From Bacteriovorax sp. BAL6_X (GTDB lineage Bacteria > Bdellovibrionota > Bacteriovoracia > Bacteriovoracales > Bacteriovoracaceae), in assembly GCF_000443995.1 (NCBI RefSeq), contig NZ_AUMC01000003.1:434001-498000 (forward strand): DNA of 64,000 nt. Direction: 5' to 3'. The stretch's first letter is position 1. Each line of letters starts with the position of its first letter. The translations under genes were made by a program, and so were the position numbers. The notes beneath the pieces are model-generated. The model ran no database searches. It was not told the origin of the DNA and saw only the letters and a list, made by a program, of their open reading frames with translations. Of the stretch, positions 2 to 15,860 are shown piece after piece.

Positions 2-682
2 TTTCGTAAAGAGAAGGGACTTGCAGAGACAAGTAATCTTTTCAAGAATTGTAATGATATTCTAAACGATTATATTATTCATACAGCAATGGATGAGTCT
101 ACTGGTTACCGATATGGTTGGATTTATAAAATTCCAGTTGAAATTATGAATAAGGTTTCTCAAAAGAGAACGGCACTAATGGAGTCGAAGAAACTAGATG
201 CTTATAATCTAATTGAAGATGAAGTATTTGGTAAGAGACTTAGTTGGATTAATAACAATTTGTCTCTTTCAGATTTTCTATATGCTGATGATTGCGTTCT
301 TTATTCAAATAGTAATGAAGCTAAGATGTTACTAAAAGACTTTGTAGAGCTTCTGTATGGTGTTTTAAACATGAAAACAGAAGAATCTCATTGCACAGTT
401 GAATTCTCTAGAGGAAAGAGCGGTTTACAAATTACAGGTGTTTTCTCTAATTTTAATTTCTCGGATGGTGACTTTCAGTCAAATATCAGTTGGCATGGAA
501 GAAAGATGCGCCTTAATGATATCTGTAAGGTAATGGAATCACGCTTACCTGATCTTTATACATCGATTTATGTAAAGAACTCTAAAGCTGATCATCAATC
601 AAAACTTAAAATTACTTTAAATGTAAACGATATCGATGGTGTTAGATGGCACGTATCAAGAGGGACTGCAGGTGGTCTTTAA
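2..682 (+). CDS. Hypothetical protein, 5' end outside window
   Basis: The reading frame is open from base 2, so the first Met inside the window (base 89) is probably internal and the gene starts upstream. The 226 visible codons encode a soluble-looking protein without a signal peptide or membrane segment and with no family I recognise. It ends 11 bases inside the next gene, which suggests translational coupling with the envelope-protein genes downstream. It may serve the same system as the FliF-FliG-like protein, but only by position. Confidence 0.6.
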   Translation, partial: FRKEKGLAETSNLFKNCNDILNDYIIHTAMDESTGYRYGWIYKIPVEIMNKVSQKRTALMESKKLDAYNLIEDEVFGKRLSWINNNLSLSDFLYADDCVLYSNSNEAKMLLKDFVELLYGVLNMKTEESHCTVEFSRGKSGLQITGVFSNFNFSDGDFQSNISWHGRKMRLNDICKVMESRLPDLYTSIYVKNSKADHQSKLKITLNVNDIDGVRWHVSRGTAGGL

Positions 683-1292
683 AAAGCTATTGATTCTTGG
701 GCTTCTAAGCTCAAGTTTACTTGCAAACGAAACATTCTATAACTCTGCTAGTATTTCACTAGGGATGATGAATTACTCTGTTACTCCTAATGAAAGTACT
801 CTTCAAAATACTGATGGTACTTCAACAGGTGAGGAAACTGCCGATGCAGCAGCTGCTGCTGTTTCTGCAATTTCAATTCAGGTAAATTGGGAATTCAAAT
901 CAGAGTTAAAGAAAAGTTACTATATTAGTGGTGTTCTTCCAATGATGTCAGCAGAAGGGACAGGTGTCTACTCAACTGTAGTCGGAATGAATTGGTACTT
1001 TGGTGATATTGGTACGAAATACTCGTATACAAGTAATGGCCAAAACTTAACGATTACACCAACAAGTAAGTATTACTGGGGTGCTTTTGTTGGCCCTGGT
1101 TACGTTATTTATAATACTGATTCTGCTAAATACTCAGATATTTTCTTTGATTTAGGCGTAAACCTAGGCGCTGGTTGGCGTTGGGGGAAGAATAGAACAA
1201 TTAAAGCTGAAGCGGCAGTTAGTCGTGCAACAGGAATTAAAACAACTGGAATTAAAATGGGGGTATTTGTAGGTATTAGCCAATATCTATAA
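672..1292 (+). CDS. Putative outer-membrane beta-barrel protein
   Basis: I start it at GTG 672, which has AGAGGG upstream and places a classic Sec signal peptide (KKLLILGLLSSSLLANE) at the N-terminus. A longer reading from 636 would bury the signal peptide. The mature part of about 190 aa has alternating aromatic/polar strands (e.g. SISLGMMNYSV, YYWGAFVGPGYVIY, MGVFVGISQYL), glycine-rich turns and a C-terminal aromatic-hydrophobic strand, as in small beta-barrels. It overlaps the previous stop by 11 bases and is 11 bases from the next gene. The family is not identified. Confidence 0.6.
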   Translation: MVFKKLLILGLLSSSLLANETFYNSASISLGMMNYSVTPNESTLQNTDGTSTGEETADAAAAAVSAISIQVNWEFKSELKKSYYISGVLPMMSAEGTGVYSTVVGMNWYFGDIGTKYSYTSNGQNLTITPTSKYYWGAFVGPGYVIYNTDSAKYSDIFFDLGVNLGAGWRWGKNRTIKAEAAVSRATGIKTTGIKMGVFVGISQYL

Positions 1293-1303
1293 ATAATTTT
1301 TTA

Positions 1304-1900
1304 ATGAAGTACTTATTACTATTATTACTATCTACATCTGTATTTGCTGCTAAGTTTAATGTTAAGTCTGATCCTAGTGATTGTGACGTATACGTTATTG
1401 ATAAAAATGGTAAAAGAGTTTCTCTTGGAAAAACACCATATGAAGCTGATGTCGAAACGATGCAAACAAATTATGGTGCAAATGGACCAATTCAAATTGA
1501 AGTTTTTAAGCCTGGATTTGAACCATATAGTTTATCTGTTCCAATTCTTGCAAAGTCGGATATAGATATCAGTGCTAATTTAAAGGTTGAGAAAAATATT
1601 GAATTAGCTCAGGACTTTGACTTTCTAGTTGGTGATTTATTTGATGTACTAAGGTTAATGAGAGGAAAGAACTTTGATCTTGCTTTTGCTAAGCTTGAAA
1701 AACTTGAAGTAAAATTTCCTCACTTTTCGATTATTCATGAAATGAAAGGTTCTATTTCATACTTAAAGAAAGATTTTAAAAACTCTCTTGCTTTCTATCG
1801 TAAAGCTTTTGGGATTAATCCTAAAAATAGAGAAGCATATAAGATGAAAATTTATTTAGAAAAGAAATTTAATGTTTCTAAGAATGAAGGAGGTAAATAA
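1304..1900 (+). CDS. Secreted PEGA-like / TPR-like protein
   Basis: The 198-aa product has a signal peptide (MKYLLLLLLSTSVFA). Residues about 18-95 resemble a PEGA domain: a short beta-rich module with the pattern 'SDPSDCDVYVID..GK..LGKTPYE' and later 'FKPGFEPY'. A helical C-terminal part (about 110-190) carries TPR-like repeats ending in 'AFYRKAFGINPKNREAYKMK'. PEGA domains are common in surface and periplasmic proteins. The stop overlaps the ATG of the FliF-FliG-like gene by one base (TAATG), so the two are probably made together. Periplasmic location is inferred. Confidence 0.6.
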   Translation: MKYLLLLLLSTSVFAAKFNVKSDPSDCDVYVIDKNGKRVSLGKTPYEADVETMQTNYGANGPIQIEVFKPGFEPYSLSVPILAKSDIDISANLKVEKNIELAQDFDFLVGDLFDVLRLMRGKNFDLAFAKLEKLEVKFPHFSIIHEMKGSISYLKKDFKNSLAFYRKAFGINPKNREAYKMKIYLEKKFNVSKNEGGK

Positions 1901-4023
1901 TGAAGAAGTTGGTATTTATCTCATTACTACTACTTTCTTCTGCGGCTATTTCAAATCCCAAAATGAATGTCCTGCCAAGTCTTGAGTGGCAAAAGAATGA
2001 ACTAGAAATGAAGGTTCATGATAAGTTACAAAGAGGTACTGAAGTTATTCTTGGCCATGAGCATTTCTTTGTTGATGTTGAAATCGTAACGAATACTCCT
2101 GAGACTCCAAACTTCAGTATTCCATTAAATCCTTCTTCTGAAGGAGATACTGGTAGTATTGACGGAAATGGACGAAAGGAATTAGATCTTACTGACGATT
2201 CTAAACAAGCTAAGGCAGCTGAAGATGATAAAACAAAATCTGATGCTGAAATTAAGTTTACTAATGATGTTCCGGAAACTGACTACGGTGAGAGTATTGT
2301 TTTTTCTCGTTTAGGTATGGAAGCGCCACTTATCGATGATTTTAATGACTTTTCTCCTTCTGGAAAAATCTTACTGACAATGGGGGATAACTCTAAGGAT
2401 AAAATCAATAAAATGAAAGAAGACTTCTCTAAAGAAAAAGAGAAGCTTGTTGATCAAATTAAAAAGTTAAGGGATGCATCTAAGGCCAAGCCTAGTATGA
2501 TTGAACAGATGTGGAAGTATAATACTTCTATTGATATTTTCAAAAATATCTCTGAGATTAATATCTCTGTTCGTCTTCCAAATGATATTGCTAAGGATGA
2601 AAGAGTTAGAATTGAGGGGCTTATTAAGTCAATCAAGCTTGGTGTAAATGATATTACTCCTAACTTTAAATTTTCTTATACGATTAATGTTCCTCAGAAA
2701 GAAGATATTATCTCAAAGAGTGACTTCCTAAAGGCATTAAGTAGCGTTTCAAATATTATTGCAATCGTTCTTGGTGTTTTACTGATTGGATTCGTTGGAA
2801 ATCGTCTTATATCTAAGTTCTTTGAACTTAATAGTGCTGCTCAAGCAGGTGGTAATTTTACAATGCAAAATGATCGTCCTGAGTCAGATGATGATGGGGG
2901 TGCAGGTGAGATGTTGGCCGCTGGTGGTGGCGGAGGAGATGGCCTTGGTGGCGTACACTCTCTTAATGGTATTGAAAGATTTAAGGTTTTTGCAGATAAC
3001 ACTCCTCAAGAAGCAATTCTATTAGTAAAGAAGTGGATTGCTCAAGATACAAAGAGTGGACATGCTGCCCTTAGAGCACTTGTTCAACAAATTGATAATA
3101 GTGCACTAACAGATATATTTAAAATGCTAAGTGAGCCAGAAAAGGCAAAGTGGAGAGAGCTGCTCAATAAGCCGCTGAATGCAAATGAGTTATCTCTTGC
3201 TAATGATTATATTAGTAATCAAATCGTACAAAGTGTTATTCTTCCTTCAGTTATTGAAGACCCAAATACTTATGATTTACTTCTTAAGCTTAATGCTGAA
3301 ATGATTAATCAGATCTATGAGAAAGATCCGTATATAGTTTCACTTGTTCTAAATGCTTTAAGTGATAGCTTTGTTGCTGAAGTTCTTTCAAGTTGCGAGT
3401 CAGAAACTGTTGATCAAATACTTATGTCTTCTGTTATCATTAAAGAGCAGGAGGTTAGAGATAATCAAGCACGTATTAAAGAAGTTCTTTCTCAATATGT
3501 TGAATCGAAATCGAAACTTCCATTCGTTGATAAATTATATGATATTCTTCCAAATGTTTCTGCGACAGTTGAAAAGAGTATTTTCAATACGCTTAAGCAG
3601 AATATTAATGTTGAAGAGTTTACAGAACTGAGCCAGAAGAACTTTCCTTCTGAGCTTGTAAGTGAGCTACCTTCTAAGTTCTTAAAGGAAGCACTTGCTA
3701 ATTACGACCTTGGAAAGAAAGTTTCATTACTTTTTGCTATGGAAGATTCTGAAAGATTGTACTATTTAGACTTATTTGCACCTGATGGAACTAAGGCGCG
3801 TGATCTTATGCAAATTGAATTCGATTCTGTTGAGCGAGATGAAATGAGAAAGAGTAAAATCATTGCTGGTAAAGATGATAGCTGGCGTGAGTTTGTTAAG
3901 TTCGTTCGTACCCGTATCACGAAAGAAAAAGATGAAAAGACTGAGATCGAAAACCTTGTCCATAACTGGGCGCAAGATTTATACGGCTCTGTCGAAACTA
4001 GACCAGATTTAAAAGTAGCGTAA
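1900..4023 (+). CDS. FliF-FliG-like chimeric envelope protein
   Basis: The 707-aa protein starts at ATG 1900 behind a perfect AAGGAGG. Residues 1-18 form a cleavable-type signal peptide. Residues about 33-65 and 205-270 look like the two halves of the FliF ring-building motif RBM3 ('ILGHEHFFVDVEI' and 'RVRIEGLIKSIKLGVND'), separated by an acidic insert as in FliF. A single TM helix follows at about 283-305, then a Gly/Asp-rich linker. The cytoplasmic part resembles FliG: 'TPQEAILLVKKWIAQD' near 368, a FliG-middle-like 'EKDPYIVSLVLNALSD' near 475, and a FliG-C-like region near 590-650. The first FliF TM and RBM1/2 are missing. It may form a flagellum-derived ring or scaffold in the inner membrane; the function is unknown. 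The domain reading is by eye. Confidence 0.55.
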   Translation: MKKLVFISLLLLSSAAISNPKMNVLPSLEWQKNELEMKVHDKLQRGTEVILGHEHFFVDVEIVTNTPETPNFSIPLNPSSEGDTGSIDGNGRKELDLTDDSKQAKAAEDDKTKSDAEIKFTNDVPETDYGESIVFSRLGMEAPLIDDFNDFSPSGKILLTMGDNSKDKINKMKEDFSKEKEKLVDQIKKLRDASKAKPSMIEQMWKYNTSIDIFKNISEINISVRLPNDIAKDERVRIEGLIKSIKLGVNDITPNFKFSYTINVPQKEDIISKSDFLKALSSVSNIIAIVLGVLLIGFVGNRLISKFFELNSAAQAGGNFTMQNDRPESDDDGGAGEMLAAGGGGGDGLGGVHSLNGIERFKVFADNTPQEAILLVKKWIAQDTKSGHAALRALVQQIDNSALTDIFKMLSEPEKAKWRELLNKPLNANELSLANDYISNQIVQSVILPSVIEDPNTYDLLLKLNAEMINQIYEKDPYIVSLVLNALSDSFVAEVLSSCESETVDQILMSSVIIKEQEVRDNQARIKEVLSQYVESKSKLPFVDKLYDILPNVSATVEKSIFNTLKQNINVEEFTELSQKNFPSELVSELPSKFLKEALANYDLGKKVSLLFAMEDSERLYYLDLFAPDGTKARDLMQIEFDSVERDEMRKSKIIAGKDDSWREFVKFVRTRITKEKDEKTEIENLVHNWAQDLYGSVETRPDLKVA

Positions 4024-4024
4024 T

Positions 4025-4054
4025 AAAAAAAGCAGCTCTAGAAGCTGCTTTTTT
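4025..4054. terminator. Bidirectional intrinsic terminator
   Basis: The stem AAAAAAGCAGCT / AGCTGCTTTTTT with loop CTAGA lies between the convergent FliF-FliG-like and acyl-CoA dehydrogenase genes. A/T tracts on both sides make it able to terminate transcription from either direction. Confidence 0.85.
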
Positions 4055-4076
4055 ATTTCTTAATTTGATTTTCTAT

Positions 4077-5219
4077 TTAGACTTGTGCAGCCTTTAACAA
4101 ATTCTTAGCAATGATCATAATCATTACTTCATTAGTTCCTGCACCAATTTCATTAAGTTTATTATCTCTCATCATACGCTCAACAGGGAACTCTCTTGAG
4201 TAACCGTATCCACCATGTAGTTGGATAGCATCAAGAGCGATCTTCGTTGCCATTTTTGGAATAGCAAGTTTAACTTGAGCTGCAACAACTGGCCCTTTCT
4301 CTCCTTGGTCGTAACGGTAAGCTACGTTGTAAAGGAAGTTTCTCATCATTTCTGTTTCAGTTGCCATTTCAGCGATCATCTTTTGGATCATTTGGTACTC
4401 ACCAATTGTTTTTCCAAATTGTGATCTTTCATTTGCATATTTAATACATTGATCAACACAAGCTTGCGCGATACCTAGAGAGATACCAGCAATCGTGATT
4501 CTTTCGATCTCAAGATTTTTCATCATGTGGTAAATTGAATCACCTTCGTTACCAACCAGTTGCTCTAGGCCTACTTTTGCGTTGTCAAAGATAAGCTCAC
4601 CTGTTGGTGAAGCACGCATACCCATCTTGTGGATTGGGCTACCAAAGTCAAAGTGACCTTTGTCTTTTTCTAAGATGAAAGTAGAAAGATTCTTTCTTTC
4701 TTTTCCTGTTCTTGTATAAACGTAAGCGATATCTGCGTATTGAGCATTTGTGATCCACATCTTCGTTCCATTTAGAAGGTAGTGATCATCTTTTTTCTCT
4801 GCTTTAGTTTGAATACCAACTGCATCTGAACCGTATTCTGGCTCAGACATCCCCATACAACCAATATGTTCACCAGTAATTAGTTTTGGTAGGTACTTTT
4901 CTTTTTGTTCTTTAGAAGCGTTATTTTCAATATTGTTAACACAAAGGATAGAGTGGGCAAGGTAAGAAAGTGTTGAAGAAGCACAGGCCTTTCCAAATTC
5001 TTCCATTACTATTGTTGCAGAAAGGGCACCCATTCCAGCACCACCGTATTCAGGATCTGCTGTAATTCCAAGAACTCCGATTTCACCCATTTTTTTGAAA
5101 GCATCCATGTTAAAGCTTTCTTCTGTATCATGCTTTTCCGCTACAGGAGCAAGCTCTTGTCTTGCAAAGTCACGACACATTTTTTGGATTTGTTTTTCTT
5201 CCTCTGTGAAATACCACAT
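4077..5219 (-). CDS. Acyl-CoA dehydrogenase, isovaleryl-CoA type
   Basis: This FAD flavoprotein of 380 aa oxidises an acyl-CoA to the 2-enoyl-CoA. Start MWYFTEEEKQ has AGGGGA eight bases upstream. Seen are the FAD/substrate motif 'CMGMSEPEYGSDAVG', 'KMWITNA', 'ERSQFGKTIGEYQMIQKMIA', and the C-terminal 'QLHGGYGYSREFPVERMMRD' and 'EIGAGTNEV'. The usual Glu of short/medium-chain enzymes (YEGT) is replaced by Gly, and a Glu is present in 'LEIERITIAG', the position of the catalytic base in isovaleryl-CoA dehydrogenases. This points to branched-chain (leucine) catabolism, although no other leucine-degradation gene is adjacent. Confidence 0.88.
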   Translation of the reverse strand: MWYFTEEEKQIQKMCRDFARQELAPVAEKHDTEESFNMDAFKKMGEIGVLGITADPEYGGAGMGALSATIVMEEFGKACASSTLSYLAHSILCVNNIENNASKEQKEKYLPKLITGEHIGCMGMSEPEYGSDAVGIQTKAEKKDDHYLLNGTKMWITNAQYADIAYVYTRTGKERKNLSTFILEKDKGHFDFGSPIHKMGMRASPTGELIFDNAKVGLEQLVGNEGDSIYHMMKNLEIERITIAGISLGIAQACVDQCIKYANERSQFGKTIGEYQMIQKMIAEMATETEMMRNFLYNVAYRYDQGEKGPVVAAQVKLAIPKMATKIALDAIQLHGGYGYSREFPVERMMRDNKLNEIGAGTNEVMIMIIAKNLLKAAQV

Positions 5220-5334
5220 ACTCTCGTCCCCTCTGTCATTTTTAATCAAAATAACTTACCGTGTCTTACATCCTATGGCAATAAAGCCTAAGATGTTTTT
5301 AGCCAATAGACTATATTTAGTAAGAACGTAAATT

Positions 5335-5379
5335 TTGTAAGTCCTTGAAATTGTCAAAGTGTTTTACATGACTTACAAT
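5335..5379 (+). promoter_or_regulatory. Sigma70-like promoter inside a 9-bp inverted repeat
   Basis: TTGTCA (5351-5356) and TACAAT (5374-5379) are separated by 17 bases and lie just upstream of the ribosome binding site of the gene at 5399. The promoter sits between two arms of a perfect inverted repeat, TTGTAAGTC (5335-5343) and GACTTACAA (5370-5378); the right arm covers most of the -10 box, as an operator would. Confidence 0.45.
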
Positions 5380-5398
5380 TTTTTTAAGGAGTCGATTG

Positions 5399-7126
5399 AT
5401 GCTTACAACACCTGTAGTCAAGGATGAGGACACGGTATTTCCAGGGGAGAATTGGTTTTTCTACTGGAAAACTTCAGCTTCTCTTTGGAAATCTAAAATT
5501 GAACAAACGTCTTTAACAGATAAGATTATCGTACCGATAAATTGGAGCTTCCATACGGACACTGGCGATAAGATTGATTTTGCAAAGCAAAAGCCTGAAA
5601 CGGACTTTAAGCGCCTATATGATATTTGCAAAGAACTTGATAAAGAAATTATTTTTCTCTTACCTGTTTCACCCGTACCATATCTGCCAAATGGAGGTAT
5701 TCCATATCTCTTAGCTAGAACTGCTAGTTGTGATCAGTATGGTTTAAACCGTGCCAGCGCAGATAGTGACGGAACAATTCATAATTTTTATAGTTTTTAT
5801 GATCCTCGAGTTTATAAAGGTTTTACACGTTTTTGTTCAGAACTAAATTCATACTTTCAAGAAAGTGGAATTAAGGCACCTTTATGGGCCGCCAACTGCG
5901 GTCATTACTCACATGGCCACTTCCATTCTTATGTATTCGATCGTTCGGTAGCGTTTCAAAGTGGCTTTAGCCGTTTTGTTGAAATGAAAAAGAGTGAACT
6001 TAAGCTTGAGAAGATTACGGCCGAGCAGGAGCATGAGTTTATTATAGAGTATAATGAAACGATTTCTCGTATCTATATCGATATTGTTAAGCAATCGATG
6101 GAAAAAAATTGGCAAGGTGTAAAGAACTTCTCTTTCTTAGAAGGTTCGATGAACTCAATAGAGAATCGAATGCTTGATCAAGTGAGTGACTCAAAGATCA
6201 TTGATGATGCCCTTAAGAGTTTAGACAACGGAGTTCTTCCGTCTTCTATTCTTCTTCCTAATCGCAATAAAAATGGGATTTATTCTGATTTAAAAAAACA
6301 AGTTATTAACTCTTCTCGTTTAGACGAGTTCTATAATGATAAGACGATAATCGCGGATAATGACTATATTTTTAAAACATCAAATGCAGTTAATATTTTT
6401 CATAATGTGAAGGACTTTAAGAGTAAGGAGCTTATCGCTTTTTCTGGCTTTATAGATTTCTGTAAAAATCAATTCAGTTGGAATTATAGCTATAGCGATA
6501 TTAATGAGTTTCATTGGGAAGACTACGTTGAAAGCCCATTTCAATTCTTCTATTTCAATGGAAAAGAGATCAATGCGGAACTTCTAGGAAAGGTCTTGAA
6601 ACTCTTTATGAGTGGTGGAAAGGTACTTATCGACATTGCATACCTTGAAAAGAACTTAAGAAGAAGACTTGAGTCTTTTTACCTAGAAAATGAATTAAGT
6701 GTTGAAAAGATCCGATTTGTAACAGAGATCAATACTGTTACAATGGGTGAGGGGCGACTGCTTATCTTTAACTCAAATGATTTTCAAGAATGTAGTGATG
6801 ACGAGCTAAGTACATTTTGGAATAAAGTAACCAAGAGTATTGGTTATATTGGATGTGAAATTTCTCAAAGCGGAGAAGTTCGCTACAAATGGCAAGAGAG
6901 GGCCATTGCTTCTTCTGATCTTAAATATGATAAGGTTAAGCGAATTAGTTTTTTTAATCCTTCAAGTTATAAACAAAAACTTAATATTAAATATCCATCG
7001 GAATACGTTTTCCAAAAGATGATCGATCAAAATCATGTAGAGATAAATAATACTCCACACGAGATTGAATTGAACTTCATGCCTAAGGGAAGTATTTCAT
7101 TAGATTTTGGGATAATTTCGGAGTAA
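5399..7126 (+). CDS. Glycoside hydrolase-like protein (GH42/GH-A clan-like)
   Basis: The 575-aa protein starts at ATG 5399 with AAGGAG at a good distance and has no signal peptide. Residues about 40-200 look like the N-terminal half of a TIM barrel of the beta-galactosidase type: 'IIVPINWSFHTDTGDKIDF', 'LYDICKELDKEIIFLLPVSP', 'FYDPRVYKGFTRFCSELNSYF'. Residues about 400-470 ('GKVLKLFMSGGKVLIDIAYL', 'EGRLLIFNSNDF') resemble the Rossmann-like domain that follows the barrel in GH42 enzymes. Where a GH42 acid/base Asn-Glu is expected I read 'PLWAANCGHYSHGH', so the catalytic Glu may be missing. The fold assignment is tentative. It is followed at 2 bases by a small gene. Confidence 0.4.
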   Translation: MLTTPVVKDEDTVFPGENWFFYWKTSASLWKSKIEQTSLTDKIIVPINWSFHTDTGDKIDFAKQKPETDFKRLYDICKELDKEIIFLLPVSPVPYLPNGGIPYLLARTASCDQYGLNRASADSDGTIHNFYSFYDPRVYKGFTRFCSELNSYFQESGIKAPLWAANCGHYSHGHFHSYVFDRSVAFQSGFSRFVEMKKSELKLEKITAEQEHEFIIEYNETISRIYIDIVKQSMEKNWQGVKNFSFLEGSMNSIENRMLDQVSDSKIIDDALKSLDNGVLPSSILLPNRNKNGIYSDLKKQVINSSRLDEFYNDKTIIADNDYIFKTSNAVNIFHNVKDFKSKELIAFSGFIDFCKNQFSWNYSYSDINEFHWEDYVESPFQFFYFNGKEINAELLGKVLKLFMSGGKVLIDIAYLEKNLRRRLESFYLENELSVEKIRFVTEINTVTMGEGRLLIFNSNDFQECSDDELSTFWNKVTKSIGYIGCEISQSGEVRYKWQERAIASSDLKYDKVKRISFFNPSSYKQKLNIKYPSEYVFQKMIDQNHVEINNTPHEIELNFMPKGSISLDFGIISE

Positions 7127-7128
7127 AG

Positions 7129-7506
7129 ATGGGTGCAAGTGATAAAGTTTTATATGTAAGTTTTGTCTATAGTGAAGAGCATAGTCTTTTCTTTATTCGT
7201 TCGATTTTTACGGCCAAATCGTCAATCGATTTTAGTGAAGTGGAACTAGGTCCAAGAATGGAGATAACTTCAGATGGGTACCTAAGTGGATTCTTTGATG
7301 AAGAAGAGTTAACGAAGTTTGCTTACGATCTTAGTGATCGTCTAAAGCAAGATAGAGTATGCTTAATTTCTCCTGATTGCTTCAATAAAGTTTTAGAAAC
7401 AACTAAGAAAATTGGTGGCTTACTTGAATCATTTATTGAGCATGGAAATGTTTTAGAAAATCCAGAAAGAGCAAAGAAAGGGTTCCTATCGAGTTTTATT
7501 CGATAG
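7129..7506 (+). CDS. Hypothetical protein
   Basis: A 125-aa soluble protein starting two bases after the glycosidase-like gene, with GGAG upstream of the ATG, so both are likely co-transcribed. It shows no signal peptide, TM helix or recognised motif. Its last 11 bases overlap the tail of the convergent EEP-family gene. Confidence 0.6.
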   Translation: MGASDKVLYVSFVYSEEHSLFFIRSIFTAKSSIDFSEVELGPRMEITSDGYLSGFFDEEELTKFAYDLSDRLKQDRVCLISPDCFNKVLETTKKIGGLLESFIEHGNVLENPERAKKGFLSSFIR

Positions 7507-8326
7507 GAACTCTGAAAATTGCCTGTAGAGGTTTATGATCCGAGCCCTCGATATCTCCGCGAACTCTAGCTTCAATTAGTTCAAGATCACGATACCAAAT
7601 GTAATCAAGTTTATTTCCAAGCCACTTCATTCGATCGTCACGACCTGTGTAGTTAACTTCTGTAAATCCTTCTTTATTTAAAATACCCCTCATCATTTTA
7701 ATTTTAGACTTTGAATTAGTATTAAAGTCACCTGCAAATACAACGGGGCCATTTGTCGTTCTTATATAGTTAACAACTTGAGTAATTTGTTTTTTAAGAG
7801 ATCTCTTTCTTACAAAGTTAATCGCATGAATATTAATAAAGGTAATACTGCGGCCATCTTCAAGTTTATATTGACTAGCAAGAGATAGTTTTGGTGTGCG
7901 GATAAATGGTTCTCTTACCTTGCTTCTAAGAGGTGTTATAGTTAGTGCCGGATATTTTGAAATATTAGTGACCCCTGTGTTGTACTTTCCCCAGCTAATA
8001 AATGAAGTGGCCAATATAATTTCTTCTTCTTCTGGAGAAAAGAGTCGCTCTTTCATTTTCCCTTTGAAACTAAACTCTTGTCCGAGAAGAATATCGCTTT
8101 CACTCATTAATACTTCAAAGTCTTCACGCCAGCTTTCATTCTTTCCTTTATACATATTCCAGGCAGTGACCGTGAATAGACTAGGGAATGAGCAGTCATT
8201 ACATGAAAGGCCTTGTTTTACTTGAATGATCTTATCTGGGCCTGGAATTTTATGAATGAATTTTTCTTGTGCAAAAGATGGAGTTACCAGTAAGGCAACA
8301 GCTAAGCTTATCATAAGCTTTTTCAT
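7496..8326 (-). CDS. Secreted endonuclease/exonuclease/phosphatase family protein
   Basis: A 276-aa protein with a signal peptide (MKKLMISLAVALLVTPSFAQ) and the full set of EEP-superfamily active-site motifs: Asn in 'TAWNMYKG', Glu in 'GQEF', His in 'INIHAINF', 'FAGDFNTN' and 'GSDHKPL'. Members are Mg-dependent DNases, phosphodiesterases or sphingomyelinases; I cannot tell which this is. A Cys pair (SCNDCSF, residues about 39-44) lies before the catalytic domain and is shared with the paralogue at 8449. Release outside the cytoplasm fits a role in digesting external or prey nucleic acid, which is inference. Confidence 0.8.
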   Translation of the reverse strand: MKKLMISLAVALLVTPSFAQEKFIHKIPGPDKIIQVKQGLSCNDCSFPSLFTVTAWNMYKGKNESWREDFEVLMSESDILLGQEFSFKGKMKERLFSPEEEEIILATSFISWGKYNTGVTNISKYPALTITPLRSKVREPFIRTPKLSLASQYKLEDGRSITFINIHAINFVRKRSLKKQITQVVNYIRTTNGPVVFAGDFNTNSKSKIKMMRGILNKEGFTEVNYTGRDDRMKWLGNKLDYIWYRDLELIEARVRGDIEGSDHKPLQAIFRVPIE

Positions 8327-8448: not shown

Positions 8449-9285
8449 CTAATCAATTAGCTCGAACTCTGCCTGAAGAGGAGTGTGATCGGATCCTTCA
8501 ACTTCTCCAAGAACTCTTGCTTCCACTAGATTTAGCCCACGATACCAAATATGATCTAGAGGTTGACCTAAAAACGTCATGCGGTCATCTGTTCCTGTGT
8601 AGTGGACCTGCATAAAGCCTTCTTTTTTTAATAGTATATTCATCAGAAGAGTTTTTGTTGGTGCATTTGTATTGAAGTCTCCTGCAAAGACAACTGGCCC
8701 TTTGATATTTTCGACAGTTTTAAGAAGTGTTACAATTTGAATCGTAAAAGGTTGAATACCAACAAAGTTAAGAGCGTGGATATTAACAAAGGTAACAATT
8801 TGTCCATTATCGGCCGGATATTGGGTTATTACAGCAAGTTTTGGTGTATTAACAATGGGTTCACGGTCGCTACTTTGAATTGCTTGTTTACCTATTGCCT
8901 TAACTATCGAACTTGTAAAAACACCAGTTGCTTGTCCATCTGTATTATAAAATGATGTTGCTAGCACACTTTCACGCTGACTATTTGAAAGAACTTCTCT
9001 CATTTCTCCTTGTAGTAGAAATTCTTGACCAAGTATAACTTCACTCTCGCTAGCTAGCTTTAGATAATCGCTTGCCCAAGAAGGCTCTTTTCCTTTGTAC
9101 ATATTCCAAACTGTCACATTAAAACGCGTCCCAAGCTTACATTCTGTGCAGTTAACTGAGCCCTTTGTGGAAAGTATTTTGTCTTTTGAAGGAATTTTAT
9201 AAATAAGATTGGCCATATTATTTGCGGCCAAGACAGATCCTTGAAGTAATAATAGGGATGTGATTAATAGGCCAAGCTTTCTCAT
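8449..9285 (-). CDS. Secreted endonuclease/exonuclease/phosphatase family protein, paralogue
   Basis: A 278-aa tandem paralogue of the gene at 7496, with a signal peptide (MRKLGLLITSLLLLQGSVLA) and AGGAA upstream of the ATG. The same catalytic motifs are intact: 'TVWNMYKGKEPSW', 'GQEF', 'NIHALNF', 'FAGDFNTN', 'GSDHTPL'. The paired cysteines are also kept (NCTECKLG). The two genes are in the same direction with 122 bases between them, and the downstream one has its own candidate promoter, so they may be expressed differently. A gene duplication followed by divergence is the simplest origin. Confidence 0.8.
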   Translation of the reverse strand: MRKLGLLITSLLLLQGSVLAANNMANLIYKIPSKDKILSTKGSVNCTECKLGTRFNVTVWNMYKGKEPSWASDYLKLASESEVILGQEFLLQGEMREVLSNSQRESVLATSFYNTDGQATGVFTSSIVKAIGKQAIQSSDREPIVNTPKLAVITQYPADNGQIVTFVNIHALNFVGIQPFTIQIVTLLKTVENIKGPVVFAGDFNTNAPTKTLLMNILLKKEGFMQVHYTGTDDRMTFLGQPLDHIWYRGLNLVEARVLGEVEGSDHTPLQAEFELID

Positions 9286-14361: not shown

Positions 14362-15162
14362 ATGAAGTTATTCGCCAAAGAAAAATCTATTTATCTGGCA
14401 AAGTATGCCACTTCGACAATAATATATTGGATTATTTACTTTATTCTTGTCTCAATTATTACGTTCTTTCACTTTAGGCTAGGTCATAAGCTTATCATTG
14501 TTGAGAATTGGCTATACGATTTCTCTTGGCAAGTGCTGGTTACTGCAAGAATTTTAGGATACCTTGTTTCAATTTACTTCTTCTCAGATATGAAGTTTAG
14601 AGATATTAAAGGCCAGTTATCTTTTGACTGGTACAATAGTGTTAACATTCCAACTTATTTAATCTCACTTGGAACACTCATTGTATTTATTTTCTTTAGT
14701 CGTCCGTCTCATATGGAAAATGTGCAATTCAGCTTCTGGCAACTAGTTGTTCATAATGTACTTATTTTTACATTTTTCTTTTTTGAGTTCTTAAATTCAA
14801 AAATTTTTTTAAAGTCGAGACGTGTAGGAAAGGTTTTTCGTATTTTAATAGAGGGCTCTCTCTTGTATCTTTCCCTATTGGTTTTATTTCCAAGGAATAC
14901 AAGTTTAGAAATAGGTCATATGTTTTTATTTTACTTAGCTTATGCTCATCTCTATTTATTTAATTATTCCGTACTTAAAGGTATGATTTTTATTTCAATT
15001 GTTTTTGTACCTCTTTTTGCCTTCTTGGGTCACGATCCATTATGGGGTACATATTACTCAATATTTTTTTCAAAGCTTGGTAATCTTTTGGTTCCAGCTA
15101 TAAGTTTATTAATTGTTACATCCGCATATTCATATATTTTAAAAAAGCAAGGAGAAGTATAG
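14362..15162 (+). CDS. Hypothetical polytopic membrane protein
   Basis: A 266-aa protein with about seven hydrophobic segments (near 18-38, 55-75, 95-110, 125-145, 158-178, 183-200, 205-222, 240-258). No family is recognised. It starts one base after the upstream stop, and its own stop overlaps the tolQ GTG by one base, so it is translationally coupled to tolQ and probably works with the Tol complex or the preceding periplasmic proteins. Confidence 0.6.
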   Translation: MKLFAKEKSIYLAKYATSTIIYWIIYFILVSIITFFHFRLGHKLIIVENWLYDFSWQVLVTARILGYLVSIYFFSDMKFRDIKGQLSFDWYNSVNIPTYLISLGTLIVFIFFSRPSHMENVQFSFWQLVVHNVLIFTFFFFEFLNSKIFLKSRRVGKVFRILIEGSLLYLSLLVLFPRNTSLEIGHMFLFYLAYAHLYLFNYSVLKGMIFISIVFVPLFAFLGHDPLWGTYYSIFFSKLGNLLVPAISLLIVTSAYSYILKKQGEV

Positions 15163-15860
15163 TGGAAGGTCATAACTTAGATATTTTCCAAATCCTCTTA
15201 GACTCAAGTATTGTCGTAAAATTAGACTTACTTCTTTTAATATTAGCATCAGTGCTTTCATGGACGATCATTTTCCAAAAGAGATCACTTTTTAATAAAA
15301 CTGAAAAGGCCAATAGTGAATTTAAAAACTTCTTTAGCGGAGTGGCCTCCCTTGAAGAAGCATATCATGATGCTCAGACAATTGAAGATAGTCCGTTGAA
15401 GAAGTTATTTCTTTCTGGTTACCGAGAGCTTAAGAAAACAGAAATTGCTCTAGGCGAAGATTATGGACTTATTAAAGAGCATTATTCTTCAATTGCTAAT
15501 CAATCAATGGAGCGTGCTTTATCAAACGAAGCAGTAGAAGTTGATCAGCAAATGAGCAATGGATTAACAACTTTGGCATCAATCGGTTCAATTACACCAT
15601 TCGTAGGTTTATTTGGAACCGTTTGGGGGATCATTGATTCATTTTCAGGCCTTGCTAGTGGTGGTGCAACACTTGAAACTGTTGCTCCGGGGATTGCCGA
15701 AGCACTTGTTGCGACTGCTGTAGGTCTAGTGGCTGCAATTCCTGCAACTTGGTATTTTAATAAATTTGGACAAAGAAGAAATAAACTTAAAGAGCAACTT
15801 CATATCTTTGGTAATCAATTTATCAATGAAGTTGAAAGATATATTTCTTCAAAATCATAA
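15162..15860 (+). CDS. tolQ: TolQ/ExbB proton channel subunit
   Basis: A 232-aa inner-membrane protein of the MotA/TolQ/ExbB family with three TM helices. The conserved core 'SIGSITPFVGLFGTVWGI' and 'TVAPGIAEALVATAVGLVAA' is present. With TolR it uses the proton gradient to energise TolA. It starts at GTG 15162 with AAGGAG upstream, overlapping the previous stop. Placement with tolR, a TonB/TolA-type gene and tolB supports Tol rather than Exb. Confidence 0.9.
   Translation: MEGHNLDIFQILLDSSIVVKLDLLLLILASVLSWTIIFQKRSLFNKTEKANSEFKNFFSGVASLEEAYHDAQTIEDSPLKKLFLSGYRELKKTEIALGEDYGLIKEHYSSIANQSMERALSNEAVEVDQQMSNGLTTLASIGSITPFVGLFGTVWGIIDSFSGLASGGATLETVAPGIAEALVATAVGLVAAIPATWYFNKFGQRRNKLKEQLHIFGNQFINEVERYISSKS

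Follow-up and report, generated by a model that had tools for sequence, protein, structure and literature searches.

To our knowledge, no use of FliG, or of MotA/MotB working against FliG, is known outside the flagellum, and none of the other 5:2-motor systems that we know of has a FliG-like rotor. A search of the open literature, outside which most subscription journals and preprints fall, returned no description of a non-flagellar FliG or of a natural FliF-FliG fusion. Here we analyzed a 64,000-nucleotide stretch of the Bacteriovorax sp. BAL6_X genome (the window) that carries a predicted fusion of this kind. We read the fusion gene, with a probability of about 0.7 and without any experiment, as encoding the rotor of a MotA/MotB-driven rotary machine that does not depend on the flagellum. 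These predatory-type bacteria would thus probably carry a second rotary machine made of flagellar motor parts, with proton-driven stator proteins of its own. If this is true, a MotAB-FliG machine exists outside the flagellum, and the motor can be separated from the rest of the flagellum as a module.

With the flagellar motor the locus shares a probable RBM3-like periplasmic domain, a transmembrane (TM) helix and a FliG-like torque domain, as well as a MotA with the conserved prolines and a MotB with the TM Asp motif and the plug and OmpA peptidoglycan domains. However, the FliF and FliG parts are combined in one protein, in which a signal peptide takes the place of RBM1, RBM2 and the first FliF TM. 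The linked MotA belongs to a distinct clade, and the module persists without FlhA/FliG. No export, rod, hook, filament or FliM/FliN gene was recognized in the fusion clusters across the neighborhoods of homologues. The machine fails the tests that define a flagellum: the export apparatus is not needed, the FliM motif is missing and FliF is reduced.

The engineered FliF-FliG fusions (8z4d/8z4g) also carry FliF followed by FliG in one chain and gave the best PDB profile match. In contrast to them, the fusion in the window is natural, its FliF part is much reduced, and it has its own operon and stators. The E-ring and other MgtE_N ARM proteins (MotE, FlgY, FlbB) have a FliG-like ARM helical domain, but no RBM3, no FliG_C torque domain and no known linked MotAB.

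Two gliding systems are also comparable. The Myxococcus Agl-Glt system couples an ion-driven stator to envelope-spanning and surface proteins (PMC13104615), and its adhesin CglB has a VWA domain, as does a protein in the fusion cluster of Bdellovibrio bacteriovorus HD100. However, AglRQS is of the TolQR type, no FliF/FliG-like rotor is known in Glt, and the fusion-linked stator carries the plug and OmpA domain of MotB instead. The Bacteroidota T9SS/GldLM system likewise has an inner-membrane rotary motor, which is thought to move outer-membrane adhesins, but no FliG rotor is known in it. GldLM resemble MotAB without being homologous to them (PMC13104615).

Domain composition of the fusion protein

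The 707-aa open reading frame was found exactly where the original prediction had placed it (Table 1). Its N-terminus, MKKLVFISLLLLSSAAISNP, was read by eye as the Sec-type signal peptide that had been predicted; an uncleaved first TM in its place would leave the topology unchanged. As a single phmmer query against all PDB chains, the protein gave one match, to the FliG 3ajc (E=1.4e-5). A profile of 16 relatives matched FliG as well as, at E=8e-8, the FliF-FliG fusion chain 8z4d. The 8z4d match covers the first half of FliF RBM3, the 'VK.W' motif of the FliF TM/C-terminal region and FliG, while the separate FliF pieces are weak. In the profile, the invariant W379 of the fusion (LVKKWI) was aligned with FliF VKNWM. 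The near-invariant residues in the 44 homologues are P583, W379, K137, R670 and W690.

The overall identity of the fusion to FliF/FliG is low. The window protein itself showed no Pfam match to FliG or to YscJ_FliF, no RBM1/RBM2/two-TM region was present in its AlphaFold model, and hhalign of its N-terminal half to five native FliF was unsuccessful. The protein lacks the EHPQ motif that binds FliM, the native EHPQTIAL being aligned to EKDPYIVSL of the window protein.

In AlphaFold (44 sequences, pLDDT 78), the periplasmic part of the window protein is modeled as a helix (28-48), a strand (57-64), a long and weak insert that contains a hairpin (132-143), and then a strand (217-227), a helix (232-244) and a strand (255-261). 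A single membrane-spanning helix lies within 274-318 and is followed by an all-helical region at 357-695. This agrees with the split RBM3-like halves and the one TM of the original prediction. In Foldseek against the PDB the first 12 matches of the model were all FliG, whereas the FliF matches were weak (probability 0.38-0.63). FliF RBM3 was clearer in a second model, of a 616-aa Bdellovibrionaceae relative (locus L077, pLDDT 68). This relative matched FliG at E 5e-5. It also matched many chains of FliF RBM3/MS-ring structures at a probability near 1.00, but with an E value of 0.2 or worse and a TM score (target) of ~0.5. The RBM3-TM2-C-terminal segment order of FliF agrees with the model topology; the sequence-profile pieces are weak. 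The proposed FliF-FliG chimera was thus supported, strongly for FliG and more weakly for FliF. We regard the FliG half as demonstrated at the level of sequence and predicted fold. The RBM3 half is, on the same grounds, only well supported, because the FliF matches are weaker in both models, and for the window protein itself the FliF evidence is weak.

To place the putative torque helix, we used the stator-contact residues of E. coli FliG (PMC12505986) for comparison. K632 and E640 of the fusion fall on the FliG counterparts of E. coli R281 and D289, respectively. In the profile alignment of 44 homologues the first position is basic in 86% and the second acidic in 100%. The acidic residue at the E. 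coli D288 equivalent is not kept, and the position is hydrophobic. This loss and the weak FliF evidence count against our reading.

MgtE_N gave weak matches in 13 of the 16 fusion members. An MgtE-type transporter was rejected: the protein has no CBS or transporter TM domains, its MgtE_N match is sub-threshold, and there is one TM besides the signal peptide.

Operon structure in the window

The ATG of the fusion gene overlaps the stop codon of the PEGA/TPR-like gene, so the two genes are translationally coupled. The predicted coupling therefore stood on the start/stop overlap, but the PEGA assignment of the upstream partner did not reach the Pfam cut-off. In Bdellovibrionaceae the PEGA/TPR protein is a lipoprotein. 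The small barrel candidate showed no Pfam match, and a signal peptide within its open reading frame suggests a true start near 675. The operon gene before it encodes 297 aa in the window's genome, compared to 500-650 aa in relatives. Judged from the sequence, the hairpin directly 3' of the fusion gene is the apparent end of the operon.

Table 1. Positions of features in the window, with residue ranges for the predicted parts of the fusion protein.
Feature	Position	Strand	Remarks
Conserved operon gene, function unknown, 3' part	89..682	+	starts upstream of window
Small outer-membrane beta-barrel candidate	636..1292	+	218-aa ORF; conserved in 38/44 loci
PEGA/TPR-like periplasmic protein gene	1304..1900	+	198 aa, signal peptide
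FliF/FliG fusion protein gene	1900..4023	+	707 aa; ORF, FliG match, fusion-chain match, model, Foldseek
Predicted signal peptide of fusion	residues ~1-19
Predicted split RBM3-like domain of fusion	residues 28-64 and 217-261		around insert
Predicted TM of fusion	residues ~280-300
Predicted cytoplasmic FliG-like region of fusion	residues 357-695
Putative torque-helix segment of fusion, residues 632-640	3793..3819	+	aligned to FliG
Intrinsic-terminator-like hairpin and T run, directly 3' of fusion gene	4027..4058	+	AAGCAGCTCTAGAAGCTGCTTTTTT, read from sequence
Flagellar-type MotA and MotB of the window's genome	43147-43914 and 43984-44829	+	separate clade from linked pair

Conservation of the module and its linked MotA/MotB

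We compared the gene neighborhoods of homologues, as the original prediction had proposed, and found a conserved Bdellovibrionota module: PEGA/TPR protein, FliF/FliG fusion, small barrel candidate, MotA and MotB. By profiles built from these loci, the PEGA/TPR gene lies directly upstream of the fusion gene on the same strand in all 44 strong fusion loci, with a gap of -23 to +36 bases. Clustering of gene neighbors in 16 homologous loci gave a recurring pair of ~265-aa genes, which Pfam confirmed as MotA and MotB. This linked pair, which the original prediction had missed, was found within the fetched stretch (MotA) in 28 of the 44 loci and 16-20 kb away in six more. In the window's genome it lies outside the window at G000:C3:417.8-419.3 kb, divergent from the fusion gene and 16 kb upstream of it. 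The claim that no flagellar gene stands beside the fusion thus holds inside the window but not for the cluster. The interval between the linked pair and the fusion holds Fn3 and HYDIN-Ig lipoproteins (~630-1700 aa), a beta-barrel candidate that has an additional N-terminal domain, and genes running into the window.

Among 116 genomes of the window's family, 42 had both the fusion and the linked MotA, none had the fusion only, two had the linked MotA only and 72 had neither (Fisher p=1.3e-29). These counts are for genomes at least 80% complete, with at least 290 bits for the linked MotA and E <1e-20 for the fusion. The p-value overstates independence because the genomes are related. However, presence and absence both occur within several genera; the fusion is present in the window's genome (G000) but not in its congeners G001 and G003. 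Two exceptions were seen. G127 has MotAB without the fusion, at a contig end, and G104 keeps a linked MotAB-PilZ without a detectable fusion beside it, which is a point against our reading.

The linked MotA and the flagellar MotA are separate lineages. In a tree of 63 rows, a 100/99 branch split the linked MotA from four flagellar MotA; the linked side includes two MotA proteins of unknown linkage. We used a protein query and alignment, MotA_N (PF20560) being too insensitive for the linked clade. Ordinary fliF and fliG, for which a check had been suggested with the prediction, lie ~105 kb upstream of the fusion in the window's genome, whose only YscJ_FliF domain match is the ordinary FliF.

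Genome G150 (Bdellovibrionaceae) has three clusters of PEGA, a 575-585-aa protein and MotA/MotB (L152, L153 and L154), each with a very large protein nearby. In six genomes a ~190-aa one-TM gene follows the linked MotB (L123 13244-13816; same position in L124-L128) and showed no Pfam match.

The fusion cluster of Bdellovibrio bacteriovorus HD100

We take genome G146 to be B. bacteriovorus HD100, which its three motA genes fit. It has, at about 2,913,420-2,915,153 and downstream of motB2, a second-type fusion of 577 aa in which Pfam FliG_C (4.6e-10), FliG_M and FliG_N all scored above their cut-offs. The cluster comprises MotA, MotB, a PEGA/TPR lipoprotein, barrel candidates and the VWA protein. 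The three motA copies map to 128 kb, 2.919 Mb and 3.172 Mb. The one at 128 kb is presumably Bd0144, and by order those at 2.919 and 3.172 Mb are Bd3021 and Bd3254, respectively; the fusion-linked pair is motAB2 (Bd3021/3020). In a 2026 paper the three motAB pairs of HD100 are all still taken to be stators of the flagellum (PMC12827227). If our reading is true, the Bd3021/3020 pair needs to be re-assigned.

The VWA-domain protein (L146, 13917-15326) and a SpoIIE-type phosphatase (3673-5424) flank the fusion/MotAB2 cluster.

Persistence of the module without FlhA and FliG

FlhA was present in 74 of the 76 genomes with fusion hits; most hosts are therefore flagellated. Of the other two, G080 (88% complete) retains FliG, and G103 (94% complete) has neither FlhA nor FliG. 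FliG is absent from all four species of genus g61, G103 and its three sister species. G103 keeps two clusters of fusion, PEGA and MotAB, and these hold its sole MotA matches. For INDEPENDENCE from the flagellum, these clusters are the strongest argument that the machine needs no flagellum.

They bear directly on the alternative that the fusion is an accessory flagellar part, an extra ring or stator dock around the MS/C-ring at which the linked MotAB add torque. A 2011 study by Morehouse reportedly states in its title that all three motAB pairs of HD100 serve the motility of its one flagellum, and FlhA is found in most fusion-bearing genomes. E-rings have been seen by cryo-ET in other species and an E-ring-like ring in Bdellovibrio, and where their composition is known, E-rings consist of FliG/MgtE-like ARM domains (PMC13023049). 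However, E-ring proteins are not known to combine RBM3 with a full FliG. A flagellar accessory would also have to explain why G103, of the FliG-less genus g61, keeps two fusion and MotAB clusters without FlhA, why no flagellar structural gene was recognized in the clusters, and why the fusion is patchy when FliF/FliG were present in every flagellated relative tested. In HD100 two-hybrid assays, FliL-Bd1076 bound MotB3, and not MotA2 or MotB2 (PMC11323537). We consider an auxiliary flagellar role unlikely. It remains in contention because of the Morehouse title, the mostly flagellated hosts and the lack of a bench test.

In the FliG-less genus a PilZ-domain gene directly follows the linked MotB (L157 10113-11177; L105 6264-7328), and at the corresponding position of L157 neither the PEGA gene nor the fusion gene is present. 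PilZ beside the linked MotAB, the arrangement in one of the G103 clusters, suggests c-di-GMP control.

Proposed mechanism

If the fusion acts as the rotor in a machine independent of the flagellum, its FliG-like domain would be joined to a single RBM3 domain, the second TM and the C-terminal FliG-contact segment, all from FliF. With these parts in one chain, a single protein would make a simplified MS-ring plus C-ring, with the ring, whose assembly is inferred, put together through RBM3. The linked MotA/MotB would be the stator and the OmpA domain of MotB would hold the peptidoglycan. Ion flow would turn MotA, which would drive the ring via the conserved torque-helix charges; rotation is likewise an inference. 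The periplasmic RBM3 ring may then move the coupled PEGA/TPR protein and, next, the small outer-membrane barrel candidate. In many genomes this inferred path could lead on to the large Fn3/HYDIN-Ig lipoproteins or to a VWA protein, which resemble surface adhesins. The likely use would be surface motility (gliding) or adhesin movement.

The same parts could also work without rotation. In this alternative MotAB would act like ExbBD/TolQR, and the fusion, as a static scaffold, would transmit force by way of the PEGA/TPR protein and the barrel to the outer membrane. Nearly every locus has the barrel candidate and the PEGA/TPR partner that such a transducer would use, and several MotAB-like systems energize the outer membrane without a large rotor. 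However, it is not obvious what an ExbBD/Tol-type device would do with a full FliG-like domain whose torque-helix charges are conserved, and the linked MotB has the stator plug and OmpA peptidoglycan domains. We consider a non-rotating transducer distinctly improbable. The rotary machine is favored over a scaffold because the dedicated MotAB co-occurs with the fusion and persists without FliG or FlhA.

An accidental fusion of decayed fliF and fliG fragments with no machine behind it, to which only the low overall identity lends anything, was rejected because of deep conservation: stop-free frames in 44 homologues from several families, a constant gene order, near-invariant residues and paralogous copies.

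The originally proposed base of an envelope-spanning rotary or scaffold machine derived from the MS-ring/C-ring is therefore supported, with its rotation and function unproven. A role of the rotary machine in driving gliding or surface adhesins is plausible, though without proof. The more specific proposal, that it is the gliding motor of Bdellovibrionota, in which MotAB and a one-protein ring act via PEGA/TPR and the barrel on adhesins, is an inference that we put forward tentatively, at somewhat less than even odds. The injectisome kept the export half of the flagellum, not the motor; such a gliding motor would be its mirror image. What powers Bdellovibrio gliding and why HD100 has three motAB pairs would both become testable questions. 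A 2026 review describes the gliding machinery of Bdellovibrio as still unidentified and a major open challenge (PMC13104615).

Other genes in the window

Two tandem paralogues with signal peptides lie on the reverse strand at 7496-8326 and 8449-9285. By eye they resemble the endonuclease/exonuclease/phosphatase (DNase I-like) family and are possible secreted nucleases. A 232-aa protein at 15162-15860 (+) is MotA/TolQ/ExbB-like by eye and is preceded by two genes of unknown function.
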